Positions 47,203 to 52,327 of a DNA stretch of 64,000 nucleotides are shown one piece after another. Positions within the stretch are counted from its first letter, which is position 1. Each line of letters opens with the position of its first letter. A program made the translations under genes and the position numbers. The notes below the pieces were generated by a model. The model was not told the origin of the DNA, did no database searches, and worked only from the letters and a program-made list of their open reading frames with translations. Source of the stretch: Polaribacter sp. (GTDB taxonomy: Bacteria; Bacteroidota; Bacteroidia; Flavobacteriales; Flavobacteriaceae); NCBI GenBank assembly GCA_029250685.1, contig JAQXEU010000060.1, forward strand, positions 41,091 through 105,090, given 5' to 3'.

Positions 47203-48504
47203 ATGGCTAGATTCGAATTGAAGTTACCTAAAATGGGTGAAAGTGTTGCAGAAGCAACAATTACATCTTGGTTAAAAGAAGTTGGAGATACAATAGAAAT
47301 GGACGAAGCAATCGTAGAAATTGCGACAGATAAAGTAGATTCTGAAGTGCCAAGTGAAGTTGAAGGAACGCTAGTTGAAATCTTATTTGAAAAAGATGCT
47401 GTTGTTGAAGTAGGAGCAACCATTGCTGTTATTGAAACTGAAGGAGGAGATGTTGTTGCAGTTACAGAAGCAAAAGTAGAAACACCAAAAGAAGTTGTTG
47501 CAGTAGAAAAAACTATTGAGAAAGCAGTTGAAACTGTTTCTGAACCAATTACAAAAACTTCTGATTCAGGTAAATTTTATTCACCATTAGTAAGAAACAT
47601 TGCGCAAGCAGAAAATGTTTCTATGATCGAATTAGAAGCAATTGCTGGAACCGGAAAAGATGGGAGAGTTACAAAATCAGATATTTTATCATATATAGAA
47701 AACAGAAGTTCTACACCGATTAAAACTGTTGAAAAATCAGTTGCAAAACCAGAGAAAAAAGAAGCTGTAAAAGCAGCGCCAGTTTCTGTAAATGGAGAAG
47801 ATGAAGTAATTGAAATGAGTAGAATGGGTAAACTAATCGCCAAGCATATGGTAGATTCAGTTCAAACTTCGGCACATGTCCAATCATTTATTGAAATTGA
47901 TGTTACAAATATTGTAAAATGGAGAACTAAAGTTAAAGATGCTTTCTTAAAAAGAGAAGGAGAAAAATTGACTTTTACGCCAATTTTAATGCAAGCCGTT
48001 GCAACAACAATCAAAAAATATCCTATGATAAATATTGCGCTTCATGGCGATACAATTATCAAGAAGAAAAATATTAATTTAGGAATGGCAGCAGCTTTGC
48101 CTGACGGAAATTTAATTGTTCCTGTAATTAAAAATGCAGATCAATTAAACTTAGTTGGAATGACAAAAGCTGTAAATGATTTAGCTGGTAGAGCTAGAGG
48201 AAATCAATTAAAGCCAGATGAAATTCAAGGTGGAACTTATACCGTAACTAATGTTGGTGGTTTTGGTTCTGTAATGGGTACACCAATTATCAATCAACCA
48301 CAAGTTGCAATTTTAGCACTAGGAGCAATTAGAAAGGTTCCTGCTGTAATTGAAACTCCAGATGGTGATTTTATTGGAATCAGACAGAAAATGTTTGTTT
48401 CTCATTCTTATGACCATAGAGTTGTAAATGGTGCTTTAGGTGGAATGTTTATCAAAACCTTAAAAGAAATTATAGAGTCTTGGGATGTAAATCAAGACTT
48501 TTAA
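47203..48504 (+). CDS. 2-oxo acid dehydrogenase dihydrolipoyl acyltransferase (E2)
   Basis: Lipoyl domain EIATDKVDSEVPSEVEG, E3-binding domain, catalytic SHSYDHRVVNGALGG. Confidence 0.95.
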   Translation: MARFELKLPKMGESVAEATITSWLKEVGDTIEMDEAIVEIATDKVDSEVPSEVEGTLVEILFEKDAVVEVGATIAVIETEGGDVVAVTEAKVETPKEVVAVEKTIEKAVETVSEPITKTSDSGKFYSPLVRNIAQAENVSMIELEAIAGTGKDGRVTKSDILSYIENRSSTPIKTVEKSVAKPEKKEAVKAAPVSVNGEDEVIEMSRMGKLIAKHMVDSVQTSAHVQSFIEIDVTNIVKWRTKVKDAFLKREGEKLTFTPILMQAVATTIKKYPMINIALHGDTIIKKKNINLGMAAALPDGNLIVPVIKNADQLNLVGMTKAVNDLAGRARGNQLKPDEIQGGTYTVTNVGGFGSVMGTPIINQPQVAILALGAIRKVPAVIETPDGDFIGIRQKMFVSHSYDHRVVNGALGGMFIKTLKEIIESWDVNQDF

Positions 48505-48590: not shown

Positions 48591-49630
48591 ATGACTTTTG
48601 ACAATCCAATTTTATTTTTTTTATGCTCGCTTGGAGTTTTTAATGGTTTTTTGGTAAGTGTTTATTTTTTGTTTTTTGAAAAAAGAAAACGTACACAAAA
48701 TACTTTGTTTGGTTTTTTGGTGCTAATGCTTTCAATTAGAATTGGAAAATCTGTGTATTCACTTTTTAGTGAAACAAAAGATTTATTGGTCATGCAAATT
48801 GGTTTATCTGCTTGTTTCTTGATTGGCGTATCATTATTCTTTTATTTAAAGTCGTCTGTTGAGAATAGAAAAAAAATTCCTGTTTCTTGGAAAATACATG
48901 TGCTAGTTTTATTCCTAATTGTCCTAATTGTTGGTTTTTTTAAACCCTATAGAATACATATCGATTTTTGGAGAAGTTTTGTTGTGTTTATATACGTTGT
49001 TTGGGGGGGTATATTTTTTTTTCAGGGTTTTTATTACGAAATATTTACAAAAAAATATTTGAGAAGAATATTTACTGTACAACATCTGAGCTATGGTTAG
49101 TTGCTGTTTTTATAGGTAATCTGTTGATTTATTTAGCTTATATAGTTGGATATTTATGGTTGTATTTAGTAGGTACATTAACATTTTCTCTTGTTTTTTA
49201 TGGGTTATTTTTCTTCTTTATGTTTAAAAAAAATAGAGAAACTATATTTAAGGATATTCCTGAGAAATATGCTTCAAAAAAGATTGAAGATGTAGAGGCC
49301 AACTTCTTGGTTGAATCTTTAAATACTGTGATGAAAGAAAAACAATTTCATAGAAACACAAATGTTAAGTTGAATGACATCGCTAAAGAATTACGTATTT
49401 CATCACATCAATTGTCACAATTATTAAATGACAATTTAGGAAAAAGCTTTGCTTTGTTCATCAATGAATATAGAATTAATGAAGCTAAAAAATTATTGCA
49501 AGAAAATAATCAGTTTACATTAGAAGCAATTGGTTTTGACGCTGGGTTTAGTTCAAAATCAACATTTTACGCTACTTTTAAAAAGATTGTTGGTCAAACT
49601 CCATCAGAATACAAAAAACACTTTTCTTAG
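48591..49630 (+). pseudogene. Membrane-anchored AraC-family regulator interrupted by a single frameshift at G7/T9 tracts (or phase-variable gene)
   Basis: N-terminal 7TM-like segment in frame 48591..49100; its continuation and AraC HTH domain in the 48968..49630 frame; the join lies at 49003-49022. Confidence 0.85.
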
Positions 49631-49732: not shown

Positions 49733-50161
49733 ATGAGAAATTACATTTTACTTTTTGCGGCAATTTTGAGCTTGCAAATGGCAAATGCACAGTCAGAAGC
49801 ATCTTTAATAGAGAAAACTTTAAAAAATTATATGGACGGAAGTTCATACAACAAGCCAGAAATGTTATTGAGTGCATTTACAGAAGATGCCACTTTATAT
49901 TTAACAGGAAGAGATGGATTTAAGTTGTATGCACCTAAAGAATATGTTGCCCTGTTTAAAAATGCAAAAATTGGAGAATTTAATGGTCGTCTTGCTAAAA
50001 TCTTAGCGACAGAAGTTGTAAAAGATATTGCAACAGCTAAGGTAGAAATTGCTGGTCCTGATAGAAAATGGATCTACATCGATTTGTTTTTGTTAAAGAA
50101 ATTTGAAAATGGTTGGAAAATAATTAGTAAAACTGCAACGCGTGTTGATGATAAAAAATAA
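49733..50161 (+). CDS. Nuclear transport factor 2 / SnoaL-like protein (secreted)
   Basis: Signal peptide; LSAFTEDATLYLTGRDGFKLYAPKEYVALF NTF2-like pattern. Confidence 0.85.
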   Translation: MRNYILLFAAILSLQMANAQSEASLIEKTLKNYMDGSSYNKPEMLLSAFTEDATLYLTGRDGFKLYAPKEYVALFKNAKIGEFNGRLAKILATEVVKDIATAKVEIAGPDRKWIYIDLFLLKKFENGWKIISKTATRVDDKK

Positions 50162-50165
50162 TAGA

Positions 50166-52327
50166 ATGAAGTTTTATATAACATTTATTTTATCGCTTGT
50201 TTTTACTGTTGCTTACGCGCAGAAATCAACAATTAGTTATGTTGATACTAAAATAAAAATTGATGGTAAGTTTGACGAATCGGTTTGGAGTCAATTACCA
50301 GAATATACAGGATTTTATAATTATGCACCTACAGATATTGGTTTAGCAGAGAATCAAACTTCTGTGAAAATATTTCATAACAAAGAGTATTTGTATGTAA
50401 GAGCAATTTATAATGATTCAACTGAAAAAACTCAAGTTAGTACATTAAAAAGAGATACATCAATTTTTTTAAGTGATGCTTTTGTAATGATTTTAGATAC
50501 TCAAAATCAAGAACAAAATGGATATTTCTTTGGAGTAAACTCTTTAGGGAATCAAACAGAAGGTCTGGTGGGTAGAAGTGGTGAGAATTATGATTTAAAT
50601 TTTAGTTGGAATGCAATTTGGCAATCTAGAGTAATTTTAAACGGAACAAAAAAGCAATATGAAATCGCAATTCCACTAAAATCCTTAAACTTCAATAAAG
50701 ATAATGGAGTTTTTGGAGTGCAATTTTATGTACGTGATATCAAAAATAATTCTTGGACAATATTTAAAAATGTTAAACGCAATTATGCGAATTTTGATTT
50801 ACGTTTTAATGACAAATTTTTAATAGAACACCTTCCAGAAAAGTCTAATTCAAGATTTACAATGACTCCTTCGGTTACTGCAAATTATCAAAAAGATGTC
50901 ACAAATAACTCAAATCAGACTTCTTTTAAACCAAGTGTAGATATTCAGTACAATGTAACTTCATCTTTAAAATTAGAAGCAACTATTAATCCAGATTTTT
51001 CTCAAATTGATGTAGATCAACAGGTAACTAACTTGACTCGATTTGCAGTGAATTTTCCAGAACAAAGAAATTTCTTCTTAGAGAATGCAGACTTGTTTTC
51101 TAACCTTGGTGTGTCTGGAGTAAATCCGTTTTATTCAAGAAGAATAGGTTCAAGTTCTGACATTCAATTTGGATTAAAATTATCTGGAAATATATCTCCA
51201 AAAACTAGAATTGGTGTTTTAAATGTGCAAACTGAAAAAGAAAATGGAGTTGCTTCACAAAATTTTGGAGTGTTTGTTGCCGAACATCAATTATCTAAAA
51301 ACTTTACATCAACGGGTTTTGTAATTAATAGACAGGAGACTGATAAGTTTAGTTTTGAAGACGATTATATTCGAGTTGCTGGTATAAATTTAAATTATAA
51401 ATCCAACAATAATAAATGGACTGGAGTTCTGAATTATGGGAAAAGTTTTAATGATGGGGTTTCTGGAGATAATTCGTTCTATAATGCAAGTATTTACTTT
51501 AATAAAAGAGGATTTAACTTTAATACTTCAGTAAAGAAATTAGATAAAAATTACATTACTGACGTTGGTTTTACGCCAAGATTGTATCATTATGATGCGA
51601 TTAACAATGTTACTATTAGGGAAGGCTATTTACAGACTTCATCTGGAATTGCATATGAAAAATTCTATGAGAAATCTAAAGCATTAAACTCAGTTTGTTT
51701 TTTAAGGTATGGGTTGAACAATTATTTTGATGTAAATGGGAACTTGACCCAATCTCAACATTCGTTTAATTCAGCAGTGTTTTTTAAAGATTTATCAGCG
51801 GTTTATTATGTTTTTACTTTTGATGAAGTAGATTTAAAATATGGTTTTGATCCTTTAAGAAATGGAAATGCTTTAACTCCTGGTAAATATAGCTTTGGAG
51901 TTTTAAAAATTGGGTATAACTCTGCAAATAACCAAAAGTTAAGATATCGTTTTAATGTTCAGAAAGGAACTTATTACGGAGGTGATAGAGCAACAGCCGG
52001 AGCTTATTTAAATTATCAAATGTTGCCTTTTGCAAATTTTGAGTTAGCATATGATGTTAATAAAATTGATTTAAATCAGTTAGGTAAAGAAACGTTTCAT
52101 TTAACACGTTTTACAGGAGAAGTATTCTTTAATAACCGTTTAAACTGGACAACTTATGTGCAGTATAATACACAAAGAGATAATTTTAATGTAAATACAA
52201 GATTGCAATGGGAATATATAAACCGCTTTCTTATATTTATTTGGTATTGACTGACAATTTTAATCAAAATATCACTCGTCAAGATTGGGGAGTTTCTTTT
52301 AAAATGAATTACCGTTTTGATTTCTAA
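50166..52327 (+). pseudogene. CBM9-like/DUF5916 outer-membrane protein with C-terminal frameshift
   Basis: Main ORF 50166..52250; after WEY the other frame restores KPLSYIYLVLTDNFNQNITRQDWGVSFKMNYRFDF* up to 52327. Confidence 0.88.

Follow-up and report, generated by a model that had tools for sequence, protein, structure and literature searches.

The Split Regulator Gene and Its Neighborhood

What does it mean when the gene of an AraC-type regulator falls into two reading frames at a run of seven guanines: a switch, a recoding site, a recent mutation, or an error in the assembled sequence? The gene in question belongs to a draft genome of Polaribacter (assembly G000; 2.22 Mb in 61 contigs, 95.8% complete), and the window analyzed here is the stretch of 64,000 nucleotides at positions 41091-105090 of contig C24. 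On the forward strand, an ORF of 169 aa (48591-49100) encodes the hydrophobic N-terminal part of the regulator up to W138, whose TGG codon occupies 49002-49004; beyond the G tract (49003-49009) this ORF reads out of frame until its stop codon. A second forward ORF of 220 aa (48968-49630), shifted by -1 with respect to the first, carries the last hydrophobic segments and the AraC-type helix-turn-helix (HTH) region, its first ~12 codons being read in the other frame. The AraC-type double HTH at the C-terminus is detected by Pfam in this 3′ fragment, with matches to PF12833 (HTH_18, E = 6e-21) and PF00165 (E = 4e-13) that both exceed the gathering score, the HTH_18 domain extending over 49379-49618 (residues 138-217 of the fragment). 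For the N-terminus, described earlier as 7TM-like, simple Kyte-Doolittle hydropathy yields ~6 hydrophobic segments. It matches no Pfam family, 7TM or other, either in this regulator or in its intact homologs, and no paralogue of the N-terminal half was found in the genome.

The preliminary description of this DNA had taken the two overlapping ORFs for a single AraC-family protein, and this is borne out by the end-to-end alignment of both halves with single congener ORFs of ~346 aa. The surroundings are also those found in relatives, which share the order odhB-like gene, regulator, Lumazine_bd_2 gene and DUF5916 gene. In the window, all of them on the forward strand, the 2-oxo-acid dehydrogenase E2 gene (odhB-like, 47203-48504) lies intact upstream, in the same region as in the relatives, and an intact Lumazine_bd_2 gene (PF12893, 49733-50161) separates the regulator from a second broken gene, encoding a DUF5916/CBM9-like outer-membrane protein (50142-52250) whose frame is lost near its 3′ end (52213-52218). 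The regulator at this locus has a membrane N-terminus and is an ordinary member of the known AraC family, its gene being conserved in many Polaribacter. Like the full-length AraC/XylS-family regulators of congeners that bear N-terminal membrane segments (L002 and L003, 79-83% amino acid identity), it shows the same length, hydrophobic segments, HTH_18 domain and neighborhood; it differs from them only by the single base that breaks its frame in this assembly.

Homologs in Relatives and the Position of the Break

Congener genomes, in sets of 99 and 168, were searched for homologs of the joined protein of 346 residues, which gave 29 aligned sequences, 39-83% identical, the closest of them aligning without gaps. 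The nearest relatives compared are other species, with 78% DNA identity. A single frame joining the N-terminus to the HTH, absent from this assembly, runs uninterrupted over the whole aligned length in 28 of the 29. The G tract itself is found at the break site in none of these homologs (0/29); most of them encode Trp-Gly-x-Tyr there with mixed codons, e.g., TGG GGT GTT TAT or TGG GGA ATT TAT. The one exception (L007, on contig C3 of genome G081) is open at the tract site but loses its frame at a T run near residue 32. Within 60 kb, the G081 assembly has at least one more break, in another gene; a third listed site contains stops and is doubtful. The second broken gene nearby suggests that the L007 break is an assembly error.

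Both the G7 run at 49003-49009 and a T9 run at 49014-49022, reported earlier, are present in the sequence, and the frame switch had been placed around 49003-49022. This interval can be narrowed. A shift at the G run restores W-G-G-Y, and the Tyr that follows the tract is invariant in 29/29 relatives; because only a frame change at the G tract preserves this residue, the indel is placed there and not in the T tract. The earlier placement therefore stands for G7 and falls for T9, where a shift would cost the invariant Tyr. Frame 0 ceases to match the relatives immediately after the G tract. A break further 3′, e.g., at the A7 run near 49050, was likewise discarded, given that the second frame matches the relatives from that Tyr onward. 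The split is an ordinary private indel, be it real or artefactual, and the gene that carries it was functional until recently.

How Unusual Is the G7 Run?

A G7 run had been considered conspicuous in such AT-rich DNA. Its occurrence is not improbable: the expectation for the window is 0.21, where one is observed, and at least one turns up in 19 of 100 shuffles. The whole 2.22-Mb genome harbors three G7 runs, fewer than the roughly 7 to which the shuffled window would scale up, and no run of G8. The T9 runs of the window are far rarer than chance (8 vs 53). The remaining two genomic G7 tracts sit in intact genes, which from our own reading of the translations we take to resemble a rhomboid protease and an MCE/MlaD-type protein. 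Chance does not account for the loss of a conserved gene's frame at precisely this G7.

Constraint on the Broken Gene

Pairwise dN/dS values were mostly unusable, synonymous sites being near saturation, and a three-taxon count of codon changes was used instead, in which the window gene was compared with L002 and L003. Private synonymous and nonsynonymous changes amount to 39:14 in the window lineage, and to 42:12 and 40:15 in the two intact relatives. The substitution pattern is alike on both sides of the break, and every position that is invariant among the homologs is kept in the window gene (45/45). No second lesion was found in the regulator gene. This retained constraint implies a gene that still functions or ceased to do so only very recently, and leads us to reject the idea of an ancient pseudogene.

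Other Frame Breaks in the Assembly

A reciprocal tblastn frameshift screen was carried out with the ORFs of relatives, genomes G003, G093 and G011 serving for the reverse direction. The indel rate derives from partial stretches of the assembly (414 kb taken, of which 187 kb were comparable), and in-frame stops were ignored, since they arise from the stop-to-stop reference ORFs and are about equally frequent in both directions. Six homology-validated frame breaks were found in 187 kb of the assembly as opposed to none in 219 kb of the reciprocal comparison (p ~0.01, simple binomial). If the sampled rate holds throughout, some 70 such indels would be present genome-wide. The six breaks fall in unrelated genes. 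Several affect runs of just 2-5 bases, and the sites are weakly clustered, two pairs lying within 3.3 kb (simulated p = 0.045). In the DUF5916/CBM9 gene, 3.2 kb downstream of the regulator break, an ATAT stretch (52213-52218) carries two additional bases, which replace the conserved C-terminal ~35 residues, the homologous C-terminus running on to 52324 in another frame. Outside the window, a TonB-receptor-like gene on the same contig is broken at about position 32289 of C24, and further unrelated genes at about 7960 and 9665 of C11 and 19655 of C19. An apparent break at 16700 of C24 was discarded, since it proved to be a shadow ORF containing stops.

Compression of homopolymers, which would indicate unpolished long reads only, was not seen when the long A/T runs were compared with those of G093 and G003. 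The run-length spectrum is normal and resembles that of both genomes, which excludes crude homopolymer compression as the cause and gives no sign of unpolished long reads. Low local depth or a mixture of strains would be compatible with the indel load.

Consensus Error or Recent Mutation?

The preliminary description had left three explanations side by side, namely phase variation, programmed frameshifting and sequencing error. Only the last of them is favored here, the first two being disfavored; to our judgment an error of sequencing or of the draft consensus is the most likely cause of the split, at about even odds. After the Trp, two neighboring codons have both turned into GGG in this lineage, which alone has the G tract, and the tract shows a length change of one base that is private to this assembly and leaves the run one base short. 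If the change is an error, the cell would make the full-length regulator of 346 aa and there would be no switch. An error is expected to come with a raised indel rate across unrelated genes, and this is what the screen returned. The open frame of 28/29 homologs, none of which has the G tract, the constraint kept by the gene and the scattered breaks, among them the 2-base ATAT insertion, also argue for it. On the other hand, the normal homopolymer length spectrum, with no sign of unpolished long reads, counts against an error, and so does the fact that a G7/G8 run is a true mutational hotspot. The data show the split, its place in the G tract, the intact homologs, the retained constraint and the raised indel load; that the indel is an error rather than a mutation is an inference.

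The regulator resembles a class of genes that has already been surveyed. The GeneTack analysis of 1106 genomes (PMC3711429) expects sequencing errors to account for most frame breaks that homology validates but relatives do not share, and we see no evident difference between those singleton frameshifted genes and the present one, which is likewise homology-validated and unshared.

The strongest alternative, possible although we do not consider it probable, is that strand slippage at the G tract produced a real mutation, of very recent date, by which the regulator was inactivated in the sequenced strain or in part of its population. The gene would then be a pseudogene of young age, or else the assembly would have captured a minor allele, in either case with no evolved switching role. 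G tracts mutate readily, the homopolymer spectrum is normal, and the neighboring DUF5916 gene is broken too, as would be expected of a decaying functional unit; the genome, with 2.2 Mb, is moreover small for the genus, which may point to ongoing gene loss. Against this reading, constraint is unrelaxed and the gene has no second lesion, which requires the mutation to be extremely young; the gene in between and the remainder of the block are intact, and similar lesions are scattered over other contigs.

Phase Variation and Recoding as Unlikely Explanations

If the split were biological, it had been proposed, it would act as an on/off switch on a signaling regulator, the G tract being a contingency locus in which changes of length turn the gene on and off. 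We regard phase variation as unlikely. Like the poly-G contingency loci of Campylobacter and Neisseria, the regulator has a G run within its coding region and loses its frame at this run, and the G8-G11 tracts found at apparent frame breaks in other Polaribacter (see below) indicate that poly-G slippage may occur in the genus. Unlike those loci, the tract is short, a G7 being little for a contingency tract, it is confined to a single genome and is not conserved. The repeat does not recur at the same place in any of the 29 homologs, nor is it longer or commoner in the genome than chance would give: G7 is not enriched, with three occurrences, two of them in intact genes, and G8 is missing. A text search of the literature returned no described case in Polaribacter, only passing mentions. 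With single-ORF homologs, no tract in congeners, the other G7 runs in intact genes and similar indels at short runs, the proposed switch finds no support. A narrower version, in which the lineage-specific G tract would be a newly arisen slippage hotspot that switches the regulator, one among poly-G contingency genes arising and disappearing independently in Polaribacter, appears decidedly unlikely. The locus serves mostly as a caution, as what looks like a plausible regulatory switch comes down to one private indel among several in the same assembly; should the reads show a real mixture of lengths, it would be an uncommon case of simple-repeat switching in marine Bacteroidota.

Recoding, by -1 ribosomal frameshifting at G GGG GGT (49004-49010) or by RNA polymerase slippage at the T9 run, could in principle yield some full-length protein. 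Like the -1 frameshift sites of the dnaX and IS type, the regulator has an X_XXY_YYZ heptamer, in the upstream frame (codons TGG GGG GGT) and in the right direction, that would produce W-G-G-Y, and a T9 run is long enough for transcriptional slippage. Unlike those sites, it has neither a stimulator nor conservation: no stable RNA structure was found in the 80 nt downstream (-8.1 kcal/mol, z = -0.43), the heptamer is missing from all relatives, and these make their product from one open frame that needs no frameshifting, so that the two-frame arrangement is not conserved. Programmed -1 frameshifting, formally correct in its heptamer, is disfavored accordingly, and recoding in either form is very improbable, at most an incidental rescue and not a programme.

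Poly-G Tracts in Other Polaribacter Genomes

Among the G8-G11 tracts sampled in other Polaribacter genomes, 3 of 30 coincide with apparent frame breaks, in genes other than the regulator. In these three loci, L229 (G11), L234 (G8) and L236 (G9), the tract lies around base 1501, at frame transitions within the coding region, and the genes encode a large surface-type protein, an amidohydrolase-like protein and a membrane protein. The three tracts are candidates for true poly-G slippage. In addition, a 2.6-Mb Polaribacter genome (G008) contains at least 30 consecutive G at 132759-132788 of its contig C8, with 115 overlapping G8 matches genome-wide; this run may be an assembly artefact.
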